NCBI GenBank assembly: GCA_902614835.1
Contig: CACMMU010000010.1
Span: forward strand, 1-37,321
DNA length: 37,321 nt
Source of the DNA: an uncultured Pelagibacteraceae bacterium
GTDB taxonomy: Bacteria > Pseudomonadota > Alphaproteobacteria > Pelagibacterales > Pelagibacteraceae
Direction of reading: 5' to 3'
Made by a program: the position numbers and the translations under genes. The stretch's first letter is position 1, and every line of letters begins with the position of its first letter. This document shows positions 2,185 to 24,548 of this stretch, piece after piece. The notes under the pieces were generated by a model. That model was not told where the DNA came from. It made no database searches and saw nothing but the letters and a program-made list of their open reading frames with translations.

Positions 2185-3081
2185 ATGCATTTTACAAAAA
2201 AAAATGTTGGAGAAAAAAGAAACAATTTTATTAATAATCTTAAGGAAAGAAAATTACTAAGATTTCCTGGTGCGTATAATCCTTTGTGTGCAAAATTAAT
2301 CGCAGAAATTGGTTTTGATGGTGTTTATATCTCTGGAGGAGTCATGTCTAATGACTTAGGAATTCCAGATATAGGATTAACTACTCTTAAACATGTCAGC
2401 TACAGAGCAAATCAAATTGCTCAAGTTACTGACTTACCTTCAATAGTTGATGCTGACACTGGTTTCTCTGATTGTAAAAAAACTATAGAAACATTTGAAA
2501 GTATAGGTCTTGCTGGATGTCATATAGAGGACCAAGTAGCTGAGAAAAGATGCGGACACTTAGAAAATAAAGAGCTTATTTCTACAGATGTCATGGTTAA
2601 TAAAATAAAAGTTGCTGTTGCTGCAAGGAAAGATAAAAATTTTTCTATAATAGTAAGGACAGATGCAAATCTTGTAGAAGGTCTTGAAAAAACTTTAGAA
2701 AGAATTAAAGCATATGAATCTGCTGGAGCAGATATCATATTCCCAGAATCAATGAAAAATGAAAAAGAGTTCGAAAGTGTAAGAAAAAACTCAAAAGTTT
2801 ATTTGCTTGCCAATATGACCGAGTTTGGAAAATCAAAGCTTTTATCTTGTAAAGAATTAGAGAATTTAGGTTACAATATAGTGATTTATCCAGTTACAAC
2901 CCAAAGATTAGCGATGAAAAGTGTAGAAGATGGTCTTAGGTCTATTTTTAAGGATGGACATCAAAATAATATTATAGATAAAATGCAAACGCGAAAAAGA
3001 TTATATGAACTAGTTGAATATGAAAAATATAATACTCCTGATAAAAAAATTACTGATTTTAAAACCGATGGGCATGAATAG
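2185..3081 (+). CDS. prpB: Methylisocitrate lyase (isocitrate lyase/PEP mutase superfamily)
   Basis: A 298-residue protein that would cleave 2-methylisocitrate to pyruvate and succinate in the methylcitrate cycle of propionate catabolism. It is a TIM-barrel lyase with metal-binding DADTGFSD (about 89-96), HIEDQ (113-117) and the catalytic loop KRCGH with C123. The KRCGH form separates lyases from phosphonomutases and oxaloacetate hydrolases. A TTG at 2182 lies just before the ATG at 2185; I prefer the ATG. The stop is 3 bases before prpC, so the two are an operon. Isocitrate lyase itself is much longer, so a glyoxylate-shunt role is unlikely. Residues after about 280 vary in the family. Confidence 0.85.
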   Translation: MHFTKKNVGEKRNNFINNLKERKLLRFPGAYNPLCAKLIAEIGFDGVYISGGVMSNDLGIPDIGLTTLKHVSYRANQIAQVTDLPSIVDADTGFSDCKKTIETFESIGLAGCHIEDQVAEKRCGHLENKELISTDVMVNKIKVAVAARKDKNFSIIVRTDANLVEGLEKTLERIKAYESAGADIIFPESMKNEKEFESVRKNSKVYLLANMTEFGKSKLLSCKELENLGYNIVIYPVTTQRLAMKSVEDGLRSIFKDGHQNNIIDKMQTRKRLYELVEYEKYNTPDKKITDFKTDGHE

Positions 3082-3084
3082 AAT

Positions 3085-4209
3085 ATGAGTGATGAAATTA
3101 AAAAAGGATTAATGGGTATTGTAGTTGATGAAACTACTATCTCCCAAGTTATGCCAGAAATAAATTCTCTTACTTATAGAGGATATAAAGTTCAAGACCT
3201 CTGCGAAAAATGTGTTTTTGAGGAAGTTGCCTATCTTGTTTTAAATGGTGAACTCCCAAGATCAAAAGAATTAAATAAATTTATAAATGAGGAAAGAAAT
3301 AACCGAAAATTATCTAAACAAATTTTAAATGATATAAAAAACATGCCAAAAAAAGCACATCCGATGGATGCTATAAGAACAGCGGTAAGTTTAATGGGAC
3401 TGGAAGATAAAGATGCGAGGGATAATTCACCAAAAGCAAATATGAGAAAAGCAATGAGAATTTTTGCACAAACACCAACTGCTGTTGCTGCTTATTTTAG
3501 AGCAAGAAAAGGTAAAAAATTTATACCTCCGAACAAGAAACTATCTTACTCAGAAAATTTCTTTCACATGATGTTTAATAAAGTACCAAAAAAAGAGATT
3601 GTAGACGCTTTTGACATTTCAATGATACTTTATGCCGAACATAGTTTTAATGTTTCAACTTTTACAGCAAGAACAATAACAAGCAGTTTGTCAGATATGC
3701 ACGGTGCTATAACAGGAGCTATAGCTAGTCTTAAGGGACCTTTGCATGGAGGTGCGAACGAAGCTGTCATGGACATGTTCAAGGAAATTAAGAGTCCAGA
3801 AAAAGCAGAATCTTGGATTAATAATGCTTTAGATAAAAAAAAGGTTGTTATGGGTTTTGGTCACAGGGTTTACAGAAGTGGTGACTCTAGGGTGCCGACA
3901 ATGAAAAAATACTTCTTTAAAGTTGCCGAGTTGATGAAAAATACTAAATACCCAAAAATATACAAAACTTTGGAGAAAGTAATGCTTGAAAGAAAAAATA
4001 TTCATCCGAATGTCGATTATCCGTGTGGTCCAACTTATCACTTAATGGGTATAGACACTGATTTTTTCACACCGATCTTTGTAATGGCTAGAATTACAGG
4101 TTGGTCTGCTCACATTATGGAGCAACACGCTGCAAATAAATTAATAAGACCTTTATCCAAATACAAAGGTAGCGAACATAGAGAAGTTTTGGCACTAAAT
4201 ATAAGATAA
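3085..4209 (+). CDS. prpC: 2-methylcitrate synthase (citrate synthase family)
   Basis: A 374-residue citrate-synthase-fold enzyme that condenses propionyl-CoA with oxaloacetate. It begins with GLMGIVVDETTISQV, close to the GLAGV-type N-terminus of PrpC and lacking the extra N-terminal domain of type II citrate synthases. Active-site residues are H221 (PLHGGANEAV), H260 (GFGHRVYRSGDSR) and D311 (NVDYPCG). HSFNVSTFTART at about 186-197 is the usual region before the first catalytic histidine. Pairing with prpB 3 bases upstream supports the methylcitrate assignment over plain citrate synthase, though PrpC enzymes often accept acetyl-CoA too. No prpD or acnD dehydratase lies here. The stop codon abuts that of the convergent methyltransferase inside a 22-base palindrome. 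Confidence 0.85.
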   Translation: MSDEIKKGLMGIVVDETTISQVMPEINSLTYRGYKVQDLCEKCVFEEVAYLVLNGELPRSKELNKFINEERNNRKLSKQILNDIKNMPKKAHPMDAIRTAVSLMGLEDKDARDNSPKANMRKAMRIFAQTPTAVAAYFRARKGKKFIPPNKKLSYSENFFHMMFNKVPKKEIVDAFDISMILYAEHSFNVSTFTARTITSSLSDMHGAITGAIASLKGPLHGGANEAVMDMFKEIKSPEKAESWINNALDKKKVVMGFGHRVYRSGDSRVPTMKKYFFKVAELMKNTKYPKIYKTLEKVMLERKNIHPNVDYPCGPTYHLMGIDTDFFTPIFVMARITGWSAHIMEQHAANKLIRPLSKYKGSEHREVLALNIR

Positions 4210-4224
4210 TTATATAATTATCTT
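4203..4224. terminator. 22-base perfect palindrome spanning two convergent stop codons
   Basis: Bases 4203-4224 form a perfect dyad centred between 4213 and 4214. The prpC TAA (4207-4209) and the methyltransferase TAA (4210-4212 on the minus strand) both lie inside it and touch each other. It could act as a bidirectional terminator for the two convergent transcripts. The stem is almost all A-T and lacks a strong T tract on either side, so termination is plausible but not clear. Confidence 0.3.
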
Positions 4225-4854
4225 TGCAAATCTTTTTTCCACTAACTCAAGCTTTAGTTTTTTTTCTTCTACAAATTTATCAACTGCTTTCTTTACTCCC
4301 TTTATATAATCTGCATCCTCATAGTCATCACACAAAATAATTGCTCCTTTATTTAACGAAATTTTATCGTAAAGTAAATTTAGATCATTAAAAACAGTAT
4401 CAAAACTATGTCCTCCATCTAAAAAAACAAAATCAATATCTTTTACCTCTAAATTTACTAAAATATGATTCGAGTTTCCTTTAATCAAGGTAACATTTCT
4501 TGAAAATTTTTTTAAAAAATTTTGAACACTTTCATACGAATTTAAATTTTCTCTAAGAATTAAATTATATATTAAAGTCTTAAAAGGATTAGAAAAGTTT
4601 TGCTTTTTCAAATAATTGGGAACTTTTTCATCCGATGATGCTTTATTACCGAACAGATCAATTCCTATATATTTGAAATTTCCTGAGTGGATTTTGTTTA
4701 ATAGTTCACAAACATTTCTTGCGGTAACTCCGCAAAATACGCCAATCTCTAAAAAAACTTTCGGTTTATGCTGATTTATAATTTTTAGAAAAATATTGCC
4801 CCAGTTTTTTTTAAGTCCTGATTTTCTCCAAAAAGTTTTATAATCAGTATTCAA
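4210..4854 (-). CDS. Class I SAM-dependent methyltransferase (Methyltransf_24 type)
   Basis: A 214-residue Rossmann-fold methyltransferase. KVFLEIGVFCGVTARN at about 32-47 is the SAM loop, YIGIDLFG the acidic motif II, and IDFVFLDGGHSFDTV followed by AIILCDDY the later strands. This arrangement (DGGHSF, DDY) is typical of small methyltransferases found with glycan and cephalosporin-hydroxylase-like families. The substrate is unknown. The only start giving a full-length protein is a TTG at 4854, placed 3 bases after the nrdB stop, and no Shine-Dalgarno is visible. It is therefore probably translated from the nrdAB transcript although nothing ties it functionally to nucleotide reduction. The exact start is uncertain. 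Confidence 0.75.
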   Translation of the reverse strand: MNTDYKTFWRKSGLKKNWGNIFLKIINQHKPKVFLEIGVFCGVTARNVCELLNKIHSGNFKYIGIDLFGNKASSDEKVPNYLKKQNFSNPFKTLIYNLILRENLNSYESVQNFLKKFSRNVTLIKGNSNHILVNLEVKDIDFVFLDGGHSFDTVFNDLNLLYDKISLNKGAIILCDDYEDADYIKGVKKAVDKFVEEKKLKLELVEKRFAKIII

Positions 4855-4857
4855 TTA

Positions 4858-5859
4858 TTAAGAAAAAGCTTCCGCCCAGGAACCTTTTGTGGATGCTTTT
4901 GAATATTCTGTTGCTCTTCCTTCGAAGAAGTTCATGTGTTCAACAGCATTGAGCATCGTATCAAGCCATGTAAGTGGGTTTTCTTTAACTTTGTAAATTG
5001 GATTTAATCCAAGCTGAATTAATCTTCTGTCGCCAATCCATCTAATATACTGTTTTACTTCATTAGCCTTCAAACCTTGTATAGGACCCATTTTAAATGC
5101 TAAATCTATAAAAGCGTCTTCATGATCCACAATAGTTCTACAAGCATCATAAATTTCTTTCTGTAATTTTTCATTCCAGATTTCAGGGTTTTCTTTTATA
5201 AATGCTCTAAAAAGTCTAATCATAGAGTTGCAATGAAGCGTCTCATCTCTTACTGACCAAGTTACTATTTGACCCATACCTTTCATTTTATTGTGTCTTG
5301 GAAAATTTAAAAGAATTGCAAAACTAGCAAAAAGCTGAAGTCCTTCTGTAAAAGCACTAAACACGGCAACTGTTTTAGCAATATCAGCCTTTGAGTTCAT
5401 ATTGAAACCTTGCATGTAGTCGTATTTATCTTTCATTTCTTTATATTTCATGAAAGCTGAGTATTCAGACTCTGGCATTCCAATCGTGTCTAGCAAGTGC
5501 GAGTAAGCGGCTATATGAACTGTTTCCATCGCTGCAAAAGCAGTCATCATCATTAAAACCTCAGTTGGCTTAAAAACAGTTGTGTAGTGTCTTAAATAAC
5601 AATTATTAACCTCAACATCGGCTTGTGTGAAAAATCTAAAAATTTGAGTTAATAGATTTTTTTCTTCCTGAGATAAATTCTTTTGCCAGTCTCTAACATC
5701 ATCTCCGAGAGGTACTTCCTCTGGTAACCAATGTATTCTTTGTTGCGTTAACCAAGCATCATAACACCATGGATATCTAAATGGTTTGTAAACAGGGTTT
5801 TCTACTAATAAACCACCTTTAAAATTTTCTTTATTATTTTTTAATTTAATTACTGACAT
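4858..5859 (-). CDS. nrdB: Ribonucleoside-diphosphate reductase, beta (radical) subunit
   Basis: A 333-residue class I RNR small subunit that houses the di-iron/tyrosyl radical cofactor. From the ATG at 5859, the iron ligands are D81 (QADVEV), E112 and H115 (METVH), E172 (FTEGLQL), E206 and H209 (RDETLH). The radical tyrosine is Y119 (AAYSHLL), so this is not an Mn/Fe NrdB variant lacking the Tyr. I chose the ATG at 5859 over a GTG at 5868 because AGGAG at 5868-5872 sits 8 bases upstream of the ATG. The start overlaps the last codons of nrdA. No ATP-cone domain precedes the catalytic fold. Forms an alpha2beta2-type complex with the neighbouring NrdA. Confidence 0.93.
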   Translation of the reverse strand: MSVIKLKNNKENFKGGLLVENPVYKPFRYPWCYDAWLTQQRIHWLPEEVPLGDDVRDWQKNLSQEEKNLLTQIFRFFTQADVEVNNCYLRHYTTVFKPTEVLMMMTAFAAMETVHIAAYSHLLDTIGMPESEYSAFMKYKEMKDKYDYMQGFNMNSKADIAKTVAVFSAFTEGLQLFASFAILLNFPRHNKMKGMGQIVTWSVRDETLHCNSMIRLFRAFIKENPEIWNEKLQKEIYDACRTIVDHEDAFIDLAFKMGPIQGLKANEVKQYIRWIGDRRLIQLGLNPIYKVKENPLTWLDTMLNAVEHMNFFEGRATEYSKASTKGSWAEAFS

Positions 5860-17654: not shown

Positions 17655-18050
17655 ATGAGTAAAATTTATATCGAAGTTTCTGCTGGTGAACTATTTGACA
17701 AGATAAGTATTTTAGAAATTAAAAAGAGAAGAATTAAAGATAAAGAAAAACTTATTTATGTCGAAACAGAGCTTAAGTCTTTAAACGAAACCTTAAAAAA
17801 AAATAAATTAGATAAGGTTGATGAGTTTTTAAAAGAGTGTCTTAAAAATTTGATGAATATAAATATTGATCTTTGGGAAGCCGAAGATTTAAAAAGAAAG
17901 TTTGAAAAAGATAAAAATTTTGGAGAAGAATTTATAAAAATTTCTAGGACAATACACTTTAAGAACGACGAAAGATCCAATGTTAAACGTCAAATAAATG
18001 TTCATACAAACTCTATAATTCGAGAAGTTAAAGATTACGTTAGTTATTAA
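17655..18050 (+). CDS. DUF6165-like protein
   Basis: A 131-residue, charged, largely helical protein. The opening IYIEVSAGELFDKISILEIK matches my recollection of the DUF6165 family (I-E-V-S-x-G-E-x-x-D-K-x-x-I-L-E). The rest is coiled-coil-like helices rich in Lys and Glu, with no membrane segment or signal peptide. Function is unknown; homologues are often encoded near glycosyltransferases, and here it is divergent from a GT9 gene. AAGG sits a few bases upstream of the ATG. Its last 11 bases overlap the convergent permease gene. Confidence 0.65.
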   Translation: MSKIYIEVSAGELFDKISILEIKKRRIKDKEKLIYVETELKSLNETLKKNKLDKVDEFLKECLKNLMNINIDLWEAEDLKRKFEKDKNFGEEFIKISRTIHFKNDERSNVKRQINVHTNSIIREVKDYVSY

Positions 18051-18717
18051 AACTATACTTTTTTTCTAAAAACTTAATAAGACTATGGATTAAGAATGTA
18101 ATTAGCAAATATATGCTACCTGCAACAATAAAGATTTCTACTGGTTTGTAGGTTGTAGATATAATAAATTTAGCAACACCAGTTAAGTCCATCAGTGTTA
18201 CCGTGCTTGCTAACGAAGTACCCTTCAACATAAGTATCATCTCATTTCCGTAAGCCGGTAAAGACTGTCTTAATGCAATAGGAAGTTTAATTTTATAAAA
18301 AATTTTACTATTTGATATGCCTAAGCTTTCACCTGCCTCGATAGTACCTTTGTCTATTGTCTCAAAAGCTGATCTAATAATCTCAGATGTGTAAGCACCA
18401 GTATTTAGAGCAAAAGCAATTATAGCACACCAATAAGGTTCTTTTAAAATAACCCAGAGAAAACTAGATCTTAAATATTCAATTTGCGCGAGTCCAAAGT
18501 AAATTATAAAAAGTTGAACCAGCATAGGTGTTCCTCTAAAAATATATGAATAATAATAAGAAAAAGCTTTTAGAAACTTATTTTTCCCTGTTCTTAAAAT
18601 TGCAAATAAAGTTCCTAAAAAAATACCAAATAAAAGTGAAGCTGAAACTAATTTAAGTGTAATCAAAGTTGCACTTAGTAACTTTGGAAAACTGGAAATC
18701 ATTAAATTAAAATCCAC
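18040..18717 (-). CDS. Polar amino acid ABC transporter permease (HisM/ArtM type)
   Basis: A 225-residue inner-membrane permease with about five helices. The cytoplasmic EAA loop reads EAGESLGISNSKIFYKIKLP at about 141-160, where it docks to the ATPase. The HisMQ-type RGTPMLVQLFIIYFG motif is at about 60-74, and ALNTGAYTSEIIRSAFE is also typical. The start is GTG, overlapping the TAG of the upstream permease by one base (TAGTG). No ATP-binding subunit follows; the next gene is on the opposite strand. The pair of permeases and the binding protein would import a polar or basic amino acid. Confidence 0.88.
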   Translation of the reverse strand: MDFNLMISSFPKLLSATLITLKLVSASLLFGIFLGTLFAILRTGKNKFLKAFSYYYSYIFRGTPMLVQLFIIYFGLAQIEYLRSSFLWVILKEPYWCAIIAFALNTGAYTSEIIRSAFETIDKGTIEAGESLGISNSKIFYKIKLPIALRQSLPAYGNEMILMLKGTSLASTVTLMDLTGVAKFIISTTYKPVEIFIVAGSIYLLITFLIHSLIKFLEKKYSFNN

Positions 18718-19409
18718 TAATACCCCCTTCGATAGTGAACTTCTAATTTGTTTAAAATCTTCATGCTAAAAAAAGTTAAAAATAAATACAAAACAGCTGC
18801 AACCGAATAAAATAGCAAAGGATCTCTTGTTGAGCCTGCTGCAATGTAAGATTGTCTCATTATCTCAACTAACCCTGTTACAGAAATTAAAGCCGTGTCC
18901 TTCAGTGTTATTTGCCAAACATTTGTTATATTGGGTATCGCTAATCTCAACATTTGAGGAAGGATTACTTTAAAAAAAGATGTATTTGTTTTTAAACCTA
19001 AAACTTTACTGGCTTCAAACTGACCTCGTTTAATAGATAAGTAGGCACCTCTAAAAACTTCTGTTGAATATGCTCCAGATATTATTCCAATTGAAAAAGC
19101 CCCGGTAATAAAAGCATTTATTTCAATATAACCTTCATATCCAAAAATCTTAGCGACATACATTACGGCAGCCGTACCACCAAAGAAAAAAAGGTAAATA
19201 ACTAATAACTCAGGTACACCTCTTACAACTGTTGTGTAAAAATTAGCTATGAAGTTTAAAGTTTTATTTTTTGAAATTTTAAGCGGTGTAAATATAAGCG
19301 CGAAAAAAAAACCGATTAGCATTGCTGTTACCGCAACAGCTAAGGTCATTAAGGTTGCAAAAAATAGCTCATCACCCCAGCCATTATCACCAAATTGAAG
19401 AAGTTCCAT
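18717..19409 (-). CDS. Polar amino acid ABC transporter permease (HisQ/ArtQ type)
   Basis: A 230-residue permease with about five membrane helices. VVRGVPELLVIYLFFFGG at about 63-80 and the EAA loop FEASKVLGLKTNTSFFKVIL at about 131-150 are HisQ-type. It forms a heterodimer with the next permease. A 9-bp GC-rich hairpin ends only 6 bases upstream of its ATG, and no Shine-Dalgarno is visible between. This arrangement suggests the permeases are translated or transcribed at a lower level than the binding protein. Confidence 0.88.
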   Translation of the reverse strand: MELLQFGDNGWGDELFFATLMTLAVAVTAMLIGFFFALIFTPLKISKNKTLNFIANFYTTVVRGVPELLVIYLFFFGGTAAVMYVAKIFGYEGYIEINAFITGAFSIGIISGAYSTEVFRGAYLSIKRGQFEASKVLGLKTNTSFFKVILPQMLRLAIPNITNVWQITLKDTALISVTGLVEIMRQSYIAAGSTRDPLLFYSVAAVLYLFLTFFSMKILNKLEVHYRRGY

Positions 19410-19415
19410 ATTAAA

Positions 19416-19438
19416 AGGCGGTTGTTTTCCAACCGCCT
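19416..19438 (-). terminator. Hairpin between binding-protein and permease genes (partial terminator or mRNA stabiliser)
   Basis: AGGCGGTTG (19416-19424) and CAACCGCCT (19430-19438) pair perfectly over 9 bp with a 5-base loop. In the minus direction the stem is followed by TTT and then AAT ATG of the permease. Its GC content stands out in this AT-rich DNA. It starts 13 bases after the binding-protein stop. The short T run suggests partial termination or protection of the upstream mRNA 3' end. Confidence 0.7.
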
Positions 19439-19451
19439 AAATAATTAATTA

Positions 19452-20279
19452 TTACATAGAAGCGTCAAAGCCAAACCAAAGTGTAGCAAGTTCTCTGAGT
19501 TTTCCAGATCTTCTTGCTTTATTTATTGCTTTATTAAAATCTTTAACAAGTTTGGTGTCTTCCTGTCTTATACCAACTCCTACTCCATTTCCAAATTCTC
19601 CGCCAGAGAAAGTTGGTCCAACCAGAACTACATTCTTACCAGATTTTTTTGCATAATCTGTAAAGGCAACTGCAGCTGCTAATGCAGCATCTATTCTCCC
19701 GGCAGCTAAATCAAGATTAACTTCATCCTGAGTTTTGTAAGTCCTTACTGTAACTTTTCCAACTTTGCCTGACTCTAAAAAATTTTGGTGAATTGTAGCT
19801 GTTTGTACCCCAATAGTTTTTCCTGCAAGAGCCTTTTTAAGAGTATTCAGAGTACCGCTATTACTTCCTTTTGAAAGATTTATAGCAGCAGGAGTTTTTA
19901 TACCTGCTAAAGTTGATCCTGACATTACAGCTAATGAAGCTACTTCATCGGCGTAACCTTGAGAAAAAGTTATAACTTTTTTTCTTTCATCAGTGATGGA
20001 CATGCCTGCCATTATGGCATCATATTTTTTTGCTTTTAAAGCTGGAATCATACCGTCCCAATCTTGCTCAACAATTGTGCATGTATGTTTTTTCATATAT
20101 CCGCACAAAACGTTTGCTAGATCAACTTCAAAACCAACTAATTTTCCATCTGATGTTTTTGAATTCCACGGAGGATACGCTCCCTCTGTGGCAATTTTAA
20201 TATTATCTGCATATGTGTTTGATGAAATCAAAAACAAAGATGCAAATATTGATAGAATTAATTTTTTAATTCCCTTCAT
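19452..20279 (-). CDS. Periplasmic amino-acid-binding protein (HisJ/ArgT family)
   Basis: A 275-residue type II periplasmic binding protein. The signal peptide has KGIKK, a hydrophobic core, and a likely cleavage after NTYA at residue 24. IKIATEGAYPPWNSKTSDGK opens the mature domain, followed by GFEVDLANVLC, the solute-binding family 3 signature. DWDGMIPALKAKKYDAIMAGM and ITDERKKVITFSQGY are also typical, and WFGFDASM ends it. The cysteine pair C59/C67 (LCGYMKKHTC) corresponds to the HisJ disulfide. Basic amino acids (Arg, Lys, His, ornithine) or octopine-type ligands are likely. It has the strongest Shine-Dalgarno seen in the window. Confidence 0.9.
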   Translation of the reverse strand: MKGIKKLILSIFASLFLISSNTYADNIKIATEGAYPPWNSKTSDGKLVGFEVDLANVLCGYMKKHTCTIVEQDWDGMIPALKAKKYDAIMAGMSITDERKKVITFSQGYADEVASLAVMSGSTLAGIKTPAAINLSKGSNSGTLNTLKKALAGKTIGVQTATIHQNFLESGKVGKVTVRTYKTQDEVNLDLAAGRIDAALAAAVAFTDYAKKSGKNVVLVGPTFSGGEFGNGVGVGIRQEDTKLVKDFNKAINKARRSGKLRELATLWFGFDASM

Positions 20280-20346: not shown

Positions 20347-21387
20347 CTATTTGTGAGATGAAGAAGCAAAATTCCATCTGCAATCGAAACTAGGGATAAA
20401 TACTTCTGACAACTCTACGTTTCCGAAATTAGTTTGAAGCAAATCTAGCCAATTTTTTACTTGCTTAGGTTTTTTTGACATACAGCCGACTTGAGCTGTA
20501 ATAGTTCCTCCTGATTTAAGTATTCTTTTTAAACCTTTCATATTTTTTGCTGCTAAGTTTATACAAAAGTCGTCATCATTAAGATCAACAAAAATCTTAT
20601 CATATTTTGAATCTTTAACTTTCTTGATGCTTTCAAAAGCATCTCCCCAGTAAGTTTTTACTTTATTATTTGCTTTTACATCACCAAAAACTTTTGATAA
20701 ATGTTTTTGACAAACTTTTACTACCTCAGGATCTAATTCGTACCAATCGATCAAATCAAATCCTTTTGAAGAAAGTTCTCTCGCCACACCGCCATCTCCA
20801 CCGCCAATTATTGCTGCACTGGAATTGTCCTTGGATAAATTAAGAGCTGAATTTACAAATTGACTGCTATATTTTTTCTCATCTTTTTCTGCAACCTGTA
20901 ATTCGCTGTCTATAAAAAGAGAATTACCAAATTCCTCTAATTTTACGATTTCTATATGCTGACCCACTTTTGATACAAAATTTTCCAGTACGTCATCTAC
21001 AACATAATATTTTTTGTGACCTGGTGTGCTGTATATGTCTTCATACATACCCTTGTTGCTTCTATCAAAACTTCTTACTACTGCTCTTTCGTGTTTAATC
21101 TCATCTTTAAGAACGTCTAAAGCTTTTGTTGGTGAAATTTTTCCACAGGTAAAAAAGTCAAAACTGATTATACCTCTCTCTGGAAAGGTGTGAAAACTCA
21201 TATGGCTTTCAGCTAAAAGAGCTAAGCAAGTGTATCCTTGTGGTTTAAATACCTTTTCTGAGATATTAAGAACTTCTATTTTTGCTTTTTTTGCAATCTT
21301 ATATATTACCTTGTTGTAAAATTCAGGAGAATACTCCTTCTTCACACCCAGAAAATCTATTGTTACGTGTTCTCCAACTTTTTTCAT
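20347..21387 (-). CDS. speDE: Fused S-adenosylmethionine decarboxylase-aminopropyltransferase (SpeD-SpeE)
   Basis: A 346-residue bifunctional protein. Residues 1 to about 115 are a class 1B AdoMet decarboxylase: LAESHMSFHTFPE has the E60/S61 autocleavage site (S61 becomes the pyruvoyl group), with H66 and C81 (FTCG) as processing and proton-donor residues. Residues 118-346 are an aminopropyltransferase with GGGDGG (195-200) and YELDP. The active-site loop reads VDLNDDD instead of the usual D-S-T-D-P, and the E-x-x-Y-H-E region reads EKKYSSQ. The fusion would turn AdoMet plus a diamine into a triamine and MTA. Such fusions have been described, including from Pelagibacter. AAGGA overlaps the preceding aldolase stop. 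Confidence 0.88.
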   Translation of the reverse strand: MKKVGEHVTIDFLGVKKEYSPEFYNKVIYKIAKKAKIEVLNISEKVFKPQGYTCLALLAESHMSFHTFPERGIISFDFFTCGKISPTKALDVLKDEIKHERAVVRSFDRSNKGMYEDIYSTPGHKKYYVVDDVLENFVSKVGQHIEIVKLEEFGNSLFIDSELQVAEKDEKKYSSQFVNSALNLSKDNSSAAIIGGGDGGVARELSSKGFDLIDWYELDPEVVKVCQKHLSKVFGDVKANNKVKTYWGDAFESIKKVKDSKYDKIFVDLNDDDFCINLAAKNMKGLKRILKSGGTITAQVGCMSKKPKQVKNWLDLLQTNFGNVELSEVFIPSFDCRWNFASSSHK

Positions 21388-21393
21388 AAAAAA

Positions 21394-22038
21394 TTATCCT
21401 TTTTTATAATTTTTCATTTTTTCTAAGACAATTTTCATTTCTTTTTTTGATAAAGTCTTAGGTTTTCCGATTCTTAGCGCATTTATATATTGATGGCAAA
21501 TATTTTCTACTTCCTGCGCGAGCTCAAAAGCGTTGTCTAAATTTTTTCCAAAAGCTATCTGACCGTGATTTGAAATTAAACATGCTGATCTATTTTTCAG
21601 TGCGGACAAAATATTTTTAGATAAATTTCTTGTCCCAAAAGTAGCATATTTTGCGCATTTTATGTCATATCCTCCAGCCACCCCAACCATATAATGAAAA
21701 GCTGGAATAGTTTTACTATGAGTGGATACAGCTGTAGCACACGTAGAATGTGCATGAACAATAGCTTTTGCATCTTTTTTATTCACATAAATATCTTGAT
21801 GGAAACGCCATTCTGATGATGGCTTTCCTTTTTTTTTATCGAATCGTCCATTAAGAGAAACAAAAATAATATCTTTTGGTTTTAATGATGAATATTTAGT
21901 TCCTGAGGGTGTAATATAAAACCCGTTAATATTTTTTTCTTTTGCTCTTAGAGAAACATTTCCTGATCTCAAAGTTGATAGATTGGTGATATTAAGTTTC
22001 TTGGCGTATTTTATAACCTGAGCTCTCAATTTTTTCAT
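21394..22038 (-). CDS. Class II aldolase (FucA-like), probable methylthioribulose-1-phosphate aldolase of the DHAP shunt
   Basis: A 214-residue zinc aldolase. From the ATG at 22038, the Zn ligands are H95 and H97 (IVHAHS) and H158 (SNHGQ), and catalytic E76 lies in PSSEWRFH, a string I recall from fuculose-1-phosphate aldolase. SGNVSLR (25-31) and TPSGTKYSSL (43-52) bind the phosphate. The ATG overlaps the mtnA stop (ATGA), and an upstream in-frame start at 22077 would lie deep in mtnA. Its place between mtnA and speDE points to cleavage of 5-methylthioribulose-1-phosphate into DHAP and methylthioacetaldehyde (Ald2). MtnB dehydratase has the same fold and is the main alternative. Confidence 0.82.
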   Translation of the reverse strand: MKKLRAQVIKYAKKLNITNLSTLRSGNVSLRAKEKNINGFYITPSGTKYSSLKPKDIIFVSLNGRFDKKKGKPSSEWRFHQDIYVNKKDAKAIVHAHSTCATAVSTHSKTIPAFHYMVGVAGGYDIKCAKYATFGTRNLSKNILSALKNRSACLISNHGQIAFGKNLDNAFELAQEVENICHQYINALRIGKPKTLSKKEMKIVLEKMKNYKKG

Positions 22039-23105
22039 TTGAATAAACTCTTTAGTCCTTCGGTTGATGCCTCGCAAACTCCCTTTTCAGTTATTAAACC
22101 TGTAACATATTTTGCTGGTGTAATATCAAACGCTAAATTCATAGCTTTGCTTTTTTTTGGATAAATCAAAACTTTTGTTACTTTGTTATTTTTATCTAAT
22201 CCTTCTACATGAGATAATTCTTCTGAATTTCTTTCTTCTATAGGAATATCTTTAAAGTTTTTTAAATCCCAATCGATTGTTGAACTTGGTAAAGCAACAT
22301 AAAAAGGGACTTTATTATCGTAGGCAGCTAAAGCCTTGAGATAAGTTCCAATTTTGTTTGCAACATCTCCTGTCGATAAAGTTCTATCTGTTCCTGTAAT
22401 GCACATATCTACCTCGCCTCTTTGCATTAAAATTCCTCCGGTATTATCAGCGATTATTGTATTAGATATACCTTCTTCGTTAAGTTCATATGATGTTAAA
22501 TTAGCTCCCTGGTTTCTAGGTCTGGTTTCATCCACCCAAACATGGATTTTAATTCCTTTTTGACGAGCATGGTAAATTGGAGAAGTAGCGGTACCCCAAT
22601 CAATAGTCGCGAGCCATCCTGCATTACAGTGTGTTAAAATATTCACTGTATCTTTTTTCTTTCGATAAATTTCCTCAATTATTTTCAATCCATTCAAGCC
22701 AATATTTTTACAGAAACTTATATCTTCTTCACAAATATCATTTGCTTCATTGATTGCTATTTTCAAAATTTCTTTACTGTTTACTCCTGATAATTTTTTC
22801 ATCATTCTATCCACTGCCCATTTCAAATTAATAGCAGTTGGTCTTGATTTTATTAAATCCTCGCTAGCTTTTTTAATAAAAGACTGATCATTATTTTCAA
22901 TTATAGATAAGACCAATCCATAGGCAGCGGTAGCCCCTATTAATGGTGCGCCCCTTACTTCCATTGTTTTAATTGCATTAATTGAGTCTTTGATGGTTTT
23001 TAAATCTTTAATTATAAATTGATGAGGAAGTTTTGTTTGGTCTATTATTTTAACAATATTATTCTCAAACCAAATTGTTCTAAATTCTTTTCCATTAATA
23101 TGCAT
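22035..23105 (-). CDS. mtnA: S-methyl-5-thioribose-1-phosphate isomerase
   Basis: A 356-residue enzyme of the eIF2B-like isomerase fold, converting methylthioribose-1-phosphate to methylthioribulose-1-phosphate. RGAPLIGATAAYG at 51-63 binds the substrate; catalytic C160 is in THCNAG and D240 in TGTDR, the same numbering as I recall for the B. subtilis enzyme. VDETRPRNQG and DNTGGILM are also conserved. The frame is open 32 codons further upstream, but the ATG at 23105 gives the standard N-terminus and overlaps the mtnP stop by one base (TAATG). It overlaps the aldolase start by 4 bases. Cytoplasmic. Confidence 0.93.
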   Translation of the reverse strand: MHINGKEFRTIWFENNIVKIIDQTKLPHQFIIKDLKTIKDSINAIKTMEVRGAPLIGATAAYGLVLSIIENNDQSFIKKASEDLIKSRPTAINLKWAVDRMMKKLSGVNSKEILKIAINEANDICEEDISFCKNIGLNGLKIIEEIYRKKKDTVNILTHCNAGWLATIDWGTATSPIYHARQKGIKIHVWVDETRPRNQGANLTSYELNEEGISNTIIADNTGGILMQRGEVDMCITGTDRTLSTGDVANKIGTYLKALAAYDNKVPFYVALPSSTIDWDLKNFKDIPIEERNSEELSHVEGLDKNNKVTKVLIYPKKSKAMNLAFDITPAKYVTGLITEKGVCEASTEGLKSLFK

Positions 23106-23977
23106 TATTTTTTCAAAACTCTTCCTGCAATATGTTGTAATTTTTTTATTGTTTTTTTGGTTCTTAGTTTTGGATCGGTAATAATAGCTGTATCTAAGCA
23201 ATTGTTTGCGGGATCTTTATCAACTGAAAAATTTGTAAAAGTTTTAATGACTTCTTTAACCATATTCTGTGCATTCGCAGCATTTTTTTGTAAAGTTTTG
23301 ATAACCATGGCAACATCAACCTCATCATGCTCAGAGTGCCAACAATCATAGTCGGTAACCATTGCGACTGTACAATATCTTATTTCAGCCTCTCTAGCTA
23401 ATTTAGCCTCAGGCATATTTGTCATGCCTATTACATCTGCTTTCCATGATCTATATAAATTTGACTCGGCTAAAGTTGAGAACTGCGGTCCTTCCATCAC
23501 TACATAAGTTCCACCCATTTGATAATTTATATTTAATTTTTTTAAAGCAGCCTCACAACATCGCCCCAAGCCTTTACTTGTAGGTTTTGCCATTGAAACA
23601 TGGGCTACTATCTCATCATTAAAAAATGTTTTTACTCTGGAGAAAGTTCTATCAATAAACTGATCAACTATTACAAAAGTTCCAGGACTAAGATTTTCTT
23701 TTAAAGAACCAACTGCTGAGACTGATATAATATCTGTAACGCCTTGTTGTTTCATTGCATCAATATTTGCTCTAAAATTTATATTGGTTGGGTTTATTTT
23801 ATGTCCTCTAGAATGTCTTGGAACAAAACTTATATCAATACCATCAAATTTTGCTGTCATAACATCGTCTGAGGGTTGTCCCCAAGAAGTTTTAACTTTT
23901 TTCCACTTAGTTTTTTCAAAACCTTCTATTTTATAAAGCCCGCTTCCACCAATTATCCCAAGCTTTCTATTTTTCAT
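23105..23977 (-). CDS. mtnP: S-methyl-5'-thioadenosine phosphorylase
   Basis: A 290-residue nucleoside phosphorylase of the PNP/MTAP family, splitting MTA with phosphate into adenine and methylthioribose-1-phosphate. IIGGSGLY (8-15) is the phosphate loop, VPRHSRGHKINP contacts phosphate, and MEGPQFSTLAESNLYRSW is the purine/ribose region, here given in two parts MEGPQFSTLAE and NLYRSW. MTDYDCWH (VTDYDCW) carries the adenine-specifying aspartates expected for MTAP rather than guanosine-type PNP. First gene of a tight four-gene minus-strand run (mtnP-mtnA-aldolase-speDE); apt is divergent, 43 bp away, so a shared control region is likely. Confidence 0.93.
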   Translation of the reverse strand: MKNRKLGIIGGSGLYKIEGFEKTKWKKVKTSWGQPSDDVMTAKFDGIDISFVPRHSRGHKINPTNINFRANIDAMKQQGVTDIISVSAVGSLKENLSPGTFVIVDQFIDRTFSRVKTFFNDEIVAHVSMAKPTSKGLGRCCEAALKKLNINYQMGGTYVVMEGPQFSTLAESNLYRSWKADVIGMTNMPEAKLAREAEIRYCTVAMVTDYDCWHSEHDEVDVAMVIKTLQKNAANAQNMVKEVIKTFTNFSVDKDPANNCLDTAIITDPKLRTKKTIKKLQHIAGRVLKK

Positions 23978-24020: not shown

Positions 24021-24548
24021 ATGGATTTAAAAAAATATATTAGATCAATACCTGACTACCCAAAAAAAGGCATTTTATTTAGAGATATAACAACATTAAT
24101 AAAAAACCCCGAGGCTTTTAATTTTAGTGTTGATAAGATCCTAGAAATATCAAAAAAAATAAAATTTGATAAAGTTGCAGCAATAGAGTCTAGAGGTTTT
24201 GTTTTTGCCTCGGTTATATCTTACAAGTTGAAAAAACCATTAATAATGATGAGAAAAAAAAACAAATTGCCTGCAGAGAGACATTCTGTAGATTTTGAGC
24301 TTGAGTATGGAAAAGCGACAATTGAAGTTCACAAAGATTCTATAAAAAAAGGTGAGAATGTATTAATTATTGATGATCTTATTGCAACTGGGGGAACTGC
24401 TGAAGCAGGTGCAAAATTAGTTGAAATTTCTGGAGGAAAAGTTGCTGGTTTTATTTTTATCATTAATCTTTTTGATCTTGGTGGGAATCAAAAATTAAAA
24501 GATAAATCTTATTTTACTGAAAGCTTGATAGATTTTCCTGGTCACTAA
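24021..24548 (+). CDS. apt: Adenine phosphoribosyltransferase
   Basis: A 175-residue purine salvage enzyme that makes AMP from adenine and PRPP. It opens with the typical IRSIPDYPKKGILFRDIT and has AIESRGFVF (about 54-62), the flexible-loop MRKKNKLPAE, and the PRPP motif VLIIDDLIATGGTAEA at about 114-129. Length matches the family. It starts 43 bases from the divergent mtnP, so it probably recovers the adenine that MtnP releases. The TAA stop abuts the stop of the convergent sugar epimerase (TAATTA). Confidence 0.94.
   Translation: MDLKKYIRSIPDYPKKGILFRDITTLIKNPEAFNFSVDKILEISKKIKFDKVAAIESRGFVFASVISYKLKKPLIMMRKKNKLPAERHSVDFELEYGKATIEVHKDSIKKGENVLIIDDLIATGGTAEAGAKLVEISGGKVAGFIFIINLFDLGGNQKLKDKSYFTESLIDFPGH

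Follow-up and report, generated by a model that had tools for sequence, protein, structure and literature searches.

The window, by which we mean the whole stretch of 37,321 nucleotides analyzed here, is contig 10 of a Pelagibacteraceae (SAR11) genome of 858,459 bases in 38 contigs (79% complete) and holds the single match to a SpeD-SpeE fusion found in that genome. The fusion reading frame, at 20347-21387 on the minus strand, has no internal stop, while frame 1 of the opposite (plus) strand is full of stops. Its features are as follows.

20347..21387 (-), SpeD-SpeE fusion gene (class 1b AdoMet decarboxylase plus aminopropyltransferase), 346 aa, ATG start, TAG stop; Pfam/NCBIfam
21034..21387 (-), AdoMet decarboxylase domain, residues 1-118 (approximate border); Pfam AdoMet_dc, TIGR03330
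20350..21033 (-), aminopropyltransferase domain, residues 119-346 (approximate border); Pfam Spermine_synth and fold match
21205..21210 (-), E60/S61, predicted self-cleavage site yielding the pyruvoyl group; ungapped alignment to 1tlu and 2iii
20860..20880 (-), EKKYSSQ (170-176), counterpart of E-x-x-Y-H-E; alignments
20788..20805 (-), GGGDGG (195-200), aminopropyl-donor binding motif; alignments, with the meaning of the motif as given in the available text of PMC11107197
20572..20586 (-), DLNDD (268-272), counterpart of D-S-x-D-P, both D-x-x-D acids retained; alignments
20374..20388 (-), FDCRW (334-338), counterpart of the spermidine synthase Y-P-S-G loop; alignments

Both halves of the protein are recognized by family profiles. 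Pfam AdoMet_dc (PF02675) covers residues 7-109 with 87.1 bits against a cut-off of 25, and the AdoMet decarboxylase equivalog of NCBIfam, TIGR03330, is passed with 91.8 bits (cut-off 75.65). The Pfam spermidine synthase tetramerisation domain (residues 119-167, 23.3 bits, cut-off 22.1) and Spermine_synth (PF01564; residues 170-340, 84.5 bits, cut-off 22.9) follow. The N-terminal half is assigned to class 1b by its above-cut-off profile and by S61, H66 and C81, which stand at class 1b spacing and within an ungapped stretch of the alignment to the AdoMet decarboxylase 1tlu. We take these residues to be, as in class 1b enzymes, the cleavage serine after a Glu, the processing His and the catalytic Cys. 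A preliminary description of this DNA as encoding a 346-residue fusion with E60/S61, H66 and C81 is thus borne out by the reading frame, the Pfam matches and the ungapped alignment; if S61 self-cleaves as class 1b enzymes presumably do, the mature protein would consist of two chains, 1-60 and 61-346. The C-terminal half belongs to the SpeE superfamily by its profile, its fold, its GGGDG donor motif and the acids D268 and D271, which we presume to act on the acceptor side. It departs from canonical SpeE in its Y-H-E and D-S-x-D-P-like motifs and in its equivalog scores, since both NCBIfam spermidine synthase equivalogs are missed (TIGR00417, 96.7 against 249.55; NF002010, 116 against 260).

An AlphaFold2 model computed from an alignment of 19 sequences (A1) reached a mean pLDDT of 85.8 and a pTM of 0.65. 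The best Foldseek match of this predicted structure in the PDB over the full length was human spermine synthase (3c6m, E 7.2e-24, TM 0.62), and the top six matches were all human spermine synthase chains, likewise over the full length, at 18-21% identity. With VIA-align, residues 110-346 of the model superimposed on solved aminopropyltransferases with Z 28-30 and rmsd 1.6-2.2 (top 26 rows), the highest Z, 29.8, being obtained against 7xif. Alignment of the model to human spermine synthase extended over 323 residues (Z 27.4) with an rmsd of 7.4, which suggests that the two domains may be placed differently in the monomer model. The human enzyme (3c6k/3c6m) shares the two-domain plan, an AdoMet decarboxylase-like domain followed by an aminopropyltransferase. 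According to the available text of PMC12803844 (Li et al. 2025), animal spermine synthase can be traced to a bacterial fusion of the AdoMet decarboxylase-aminopropyltransferase kind, and its lineage lost the decarboxylase function, whereas the decarboxylase residues S61, H66 and C81 are intact in the window fusion; the name Pelagibacter does not occur in that text.

The two acceptor-side motifs were compared with those of characterized spermidine synthases. Relative to the B. subtilis and P. falciparum enzymes, KDE-F-x-Y-H-E has become KDE-K-K-Y-S-S (EKKYSSQ being residues 170-176 of the fusion protein), and DLNDD (268-272) stands in place of D-S-T-E-P (B. subtilis) or D-S-S-D-P (P. falciparum). 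Human spermine synthase carries a Leu after its catalytic Asp. Both loops align with the B. subtilis and P. falciparum enzymes without internal gaps, and a one-residue gap comes after the acceptor loop, so that the DLNDD and EKKYSSQ readings of the preliminary description hold; that the unusual loops might be gap artefacts was rejected, no gap being present within either motif in two alignments. The claim of an altered active site stands in part: the H and E of YHE are replaced, as are the acceptor-loop S and P and the Y of the C-terminal loop, but the core residues Y173, D268, D271 and Q299 are retained. Structures of human spermidine synthase reportedly show substrates bound by the YHE Tyr and by the D-x-x-D acids; as these are kept, the acceptor site appears to have been modified around an intact core, in a change now fixed in the clade. 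The unfused SpeE proteins of B. subtilis (1iy9) and E. coli (3o4f) share with the window fusion the fold, the sequence family, the GGGDG and AQ motifs and an acceptor loop with an acidic residue at either end; they differ from it in carrying YHE, DSTEP (B. subtilis) or DCTDP (E. coli), and IPTY, against YSS, DLNDD and IPSF.

Throughout alignment A1, Y173, D268, D271 and Q299 are invariant, including in four remote fusions from outside Pelagibacter (24-26% identity), all of which have YHE, with DSTDP in three and DLPDE in one. A remote alphaproteobacterial fusion (locus L121:1141-2544, minus strand) has GSSEG instead of GGGDG, and its acceptor loop reads D-L-P-D. Closer to the window, we compared 96 distinct SAR11 sequences (window included), made up of the best 80 of at least 573 confirmed matches and of loci from a second genome set, a sample in which near relatives are therefore over-represented. 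E60, S61, H66 and C81 are identical in 96/96, as are S174, all of D268-D272 (DLNDD), and F334, D335, C336 and W338. Judged by these alignments, the YS and DLNDD motifs are a signature of the SAR11 clade and no private change of the window. Since the unusual active-site letters are fixed throughout the group, there is little out of the ordinary about the gene; with H, E, S, P and the C-terminal-loop Y all replaced, the product ratios are unreadable from the sequence.

Both fusion domains are under purifying selection. Between the window and locus L031, dN is 0.034 and dS 0.90 (dN/dS about 0.04), with low dN in both halves; dS is saturated against locus L033, hence no ratio is given there. These values bear on the idea of a degenerate aminopropyltransferase half, with the decarboxylase alone at work. 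Such decay might be read into the replaced motif residues, but dN is 0.029 against a dS of 0.81 in this half (L031), and the replaced positions themselves, S174, L269, N270 and D272, are invariant in the 96 sequences. We reject it on dN/dS and invariance, and give it practically no likelihood.

Fusions of this kind are known. The Pelagibacter pattern described in the available text of PMC11107197 (Li et al. 2024), a class 1b AdoMet decarboxylase fused ahead of one divergent aminopropyltransferase, is found here. The spermine synthase pattern of the same text is present as well, with the motif 2 Asp and Gly at D198 and G200 and the motif 3 Glu at E217, the latter position being our own reading of what is available of that paper combined with an E. 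coli alignment. As reported there, the fusions of HTCC1062 (WP_011282223) and HTCC7211 (WP_008544956) were expressed in E. coli. In a speD deletion strain both gave spermidine, showing active AdoMet decarboxylase; in a speE deletion strain they gave spermine and thermospermine, the two isomers being of a similar order of amount by LC-MS/MS; and when 1,3-diaminopropane was fed they gave norspermidine. The window fusion shares organism family and domain order with these Ca. Pelagibacter ubique HTCC1062 and Ca. Pelagibacter sp. HTCC7211 enzymes, to which it is probably about 65% identical, and the tested enzymes would be expected to carry the YS and DLNDD motifs.

From the altered loops, the preliminary description had suggested that several acceptors may be used or that the acceptor may not be putrescine. 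The first suggestion agrees with the products obtained from the two orthologues (spermidine, spermine, thermospermine and norspermidine) and, for these relatives, had in effect already been published in PMC11107197, as far as its available text goes. The second finds no support, as spermine and thermospermine were made in a strain without spermidine, which implies that the orthologues used putrescine, and as YS and DLNDD occur in 96/96 SAR11 sequences. By analogy, the window protein probably behaves like its tested relatives.

The fusion is the last gene of a head-to-tail operon, mtnP-mtnA-aldolase-fusion, upstream of which lies a divergent gene for adenine salvage.

21394..22038 (-), class II aldolase, 214 aa; Pfam Aldolase_II
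22035..23105 (-), MtnA, methylthioribose-1-phosphate isomerase, 356 aa; TIGR00512, 410 bits, cut-off 279
23105..23977 (-), MtnP, methylthioadenosine phosphorylase, 290 aa; NF006492, 442.8 bits, cut-off 437
24021..24548 (+), adenine phosphoribosyltransferase, for adenine salvage, transcribed away from the operon; TIGR01090, 206 bits, cut-off 185.85

The mtnP gene overlaps mtnA by 1 base, the overlap between mtnA and the aldolase gene is 4 bases long, and 6 bases separate the aldolase gene from the fusion. Together, mtnP, mtnA and the aldolase gene, with the adenine phosphoribosyltransferase, would convert methylthioadenosine (MTA) into adenine and AMP and leave a cleaved sugar phosphate. The best NCBIfam match of the aldolase is L-fuculose-phosphate aldolase (201, cut-off 264), and it likely cleaves methylthioribulose-1-phosphate; its identification as a canonical MtnB dehydratase was rejected (66.8 against a cut-off of 137). 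Usual methionine salvage requires acireductone dioxygenase. This enzyme was not found in any of the 12 genomes searched (five of them at least 90% complete), by a search that in a control on 14 well-known genomes gave a match in five, above the cut-off in two. A DHAP-shunt ending of the MTA route is likely. With the DHAP shunt (MtnP or Pfs/MtnK, MtnA and Ald2) described in the available texts of PMC10986504 and PMC6302742, the window shares MtnP, MtnA and a class II aldolase, here in one operon; the window operon differs in being joined to a polyamine enzyme that produces methylthioadenosine, and in that its aldolase activity is a putative one. Literature searches for SAR11 with methylthioadenosine, aldolase and methylthioribulose, and for SAR11 with methylthioethanol, found no report.

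We consider it highly probable that the window gene encodes a bacterial AdoMet decarboxylase-aminopropyltransferase fusion of the known kind, in its SAR11 version, making spermidine and then spermine and thermospermine, in an operon that clears MTA. In the proposed mechanism, the N-terminal half would self-cleave at E60-S61, form its pyruvoyl group and decarboxylate AdoMet; the C-terminal half would transfer the aminopropyl group of decarboxylated AdoMet to putrescine, giving spermidine, and would yield spermine and thermospermine by adding a second one at one end of spermidine or the other; it could also use other short amines, if present, as acceptors. MtnP would split the by-product methylthioadenosine into adenine and methylthioribose-1-phosphate, which MtnA would isomerize, and the class II aldolase would cut the MtnA product into DHAP and methylthioacetaldehyde. 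The opposite direction has been considered for SAR11: in the available text of PMC8437039 (2021), putrescine is reported to have risen in HTCC7211 fed with spermidine, and a reversible SpeE is proposed, so that the aminopropyltransferase half might run mainly in reverse in the cell and degrade imported spermidine and norspermidine. However, the same text describes SpeE as irreversible in other cell types and gives no clear result for HTCC1062, and the attached AdoMet decarboxylase and the MTA-clearing genes would in our opinion favor synthesis. We hold mainly reversed operation to be very improbable, and retain the biosynthetic reading.

The enzyme class has thus been described, and products are known for tested relatives. 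Our main claim is an ordinary one: the gene encodes a real, conserved and correctly read enzyme of a characterized group. What we add is modest, namely that the unusual motifs are fixed across the clade, that one form of the enzyme can be singled out, and that the neighboring by-product pathway comes in two versions; this form and the aldolase replacement are the notable parts. We call form A the sequences at least 80% identical to the window, which amount to 26 of the 96 rows (window included), leaving 70 rows of others; the two forms are about 66% identical. The fusion labeled Ca. Pelagibacter ubique (L078) is 68% identical to that of the window, and those of the single-contig family genomes G032, G158, G357 and G376 are at 59-66%, from which the tested HTCC1062 and HTCC7211 enzymes probably belong to the other form. 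Form A is probably a subfamily outside the characterized enzymes.

Form A may have drifted to another main acceptor, such as agmatine or homospermidine, both of which the window's genome seems able to produce, and make spermine and thermospermine only as minor products. Its differences lie beside the two loops: among the 96 rows, residue 176 is Q in 26/26 form-A sequences and N or T in 66/70 others; residue 274 is F in 24/26 and Y in 69/70, respectively; and at residue 273 the window and four other form-A rows have D, against Q in 70/70 others. Against drift, the core motif residues are the same in both forms, and residue 175, which is G in 22/26 form-A rows, is S in the window, as in 68/70 of the others. 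The supply of acceptors bears on the same question. On contig 2 of the window's own genome (L141:2973-7119), four adjoining genes encode homologues of a PLP decarboxylase, DHS, N-carbamoylputrescine amidase and agmatine deiminase. The decarboxylase (392 residues, ornithine/arginine/diaminopimelate fold) exceeds the cut-off of Pfam PF02784; its best NCBIfam match, lysA, is below the cut-off, and no ornithine or arginine decarboxylase model is above it. The amidase scores 300.5 against an NCBIfam cut-off of 410 and the deiminase 227 against 382. The names of three of the putrescine-route genes are putative. In the available text of PMC9992855, counterparts of the decarboxylase from Pelagibacter and Fonsibacter act on arginine and on neither ornithine nor lysine, in clusters with arginase/agmatinase (Pelagibacter) or with agmatine deiminase and the amidase (Fonsibacter). 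Gene order and length suggest that the decarboxylase on contig 2 likewise acts on arginine, and the cluster is likely an arginine-to-putrescine route, which makes putrescine, agmatine and homospermidine plausible acceptors in the cell.

That the DHS homologue exceeds the cut-off of the agmatine-coupling family NF002699 speaks for a shift of acceptor, and in the available text of PMC11107197 the Pelagibacter enzymes are not named in connection with any result on agmatine or homospermidine. On the other hand, putrescine would be the product of the agmatine deiminase and N-carbamoylputrescine amidase homologues, and the same text states that agmatine was used by no thermospermine synthase other than that of Thermus and by only four spermine synthases. 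If drift had occurred, form A would mainly make aminopropylagmatine or N1-aminopropylhomospermidine; a literature search for Pelagibacter with aminopropylagmatine returned only PMC11107197. We regard such a shift as unlikely, and prefer putrescine and then spermidine as acceptors.

The second version of the by-product pathway involves a different aldolase gene. Each of 80 listed loci has either the small aldolase gene (59) or a gene for a 677-residue aldolase/short-chain dehydrogenase (21), none having both and none neither.

L033:3870-5903 (-), 677-residue aldolase/short-chain dehydrogenase; NF006192; at the corresponding position in 20 further form-A loci

At the 21 loci the large gene is divergent from the fusion gene. 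All 57 listed loci below 80% identity have the small aldolase; among the 23 listed form-A loci, 21 have the large and two the small one, and the window, which lies outside the 80, has the small one. In a search of 12 genomes, the large protein was matched at 90-100% in five, and only its dehydrogenase half in the other seven, all of which have the small aldolase at the locus. The large protein may cleave methylthioribulose-1-phosphate and then oxidize or reduce the aldehyde. Trees of the fusion and of MtnA were built with 26 rows from the window and 38 loci; 13 loci were dropped as less than 80% of the fusion or mtnA query was matched, in most cases through truncation of mtnA by the end of the locus, and these include L018-L021 and L024-L027, with mosaic loci among them. 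In the fusion tree, the window and L031 fall inside the large-aldolase group, so that at least two aldolase changes are needed; the MtnA tree (26 rows) needs three.

Two of the dropped loci, L018 and L024, are 86-93% identical to the window in DNA over 21600-22800 (mtnA and aldolase) and then 64-71% in the fusion gene, the drop sitting about at the aldolase/fusion gene border. This pattern suggests that the fusion gene may have been exchanged between SAR11 lineages. A scan of viral contigs with six peptide patterns gave no match to the fusion. Among genomes, the fusion query matched in 29 of 61, that is, in 29/37 of the window's family and 0/24 of the other family of the order. Within the family, 263 of the 298 genomes at least 80% complete had a match (E at most 0.001), a few of them partial or weak (for example, 3.6e-5 in G426). 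Some absences may be assembly gaps, but the five listed genomes of genus g5, among them a single-contig genome at 99%, were all without a match. Among the matches listed, the 23 named loci with a protein identity of 83-94% are labeled Pelagibacteraceae (single cells or MAGs), bar one labeled Alpha proteobacterium.

The surroundings of these genes vary. Downstream of mtnA, some form-A loci have an enoyl-CoA hydratase gene and a gene for a 161-residue protein with weak CoA-ligase alpha subunit matches (L033:2608-3863); L041 has a malate/sulfolactate-type dehydrogenase gene in the same region instead (2860-3864). In L054, a 376-residue protein with no NCBIfam match at E 0.001 is encoded between mtnA and the aldolase gene (4220-5350, plus strand). 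Directly downstream of the window fusion, at 18040-20279, lie amino-acid-type ABC transporter genes (a binding protein, whose best NCBIfam match is a lysine/arginine/ornithine binding protein below cut-off, and two permeases), which adjoin the fusion in some relatives and not in others.
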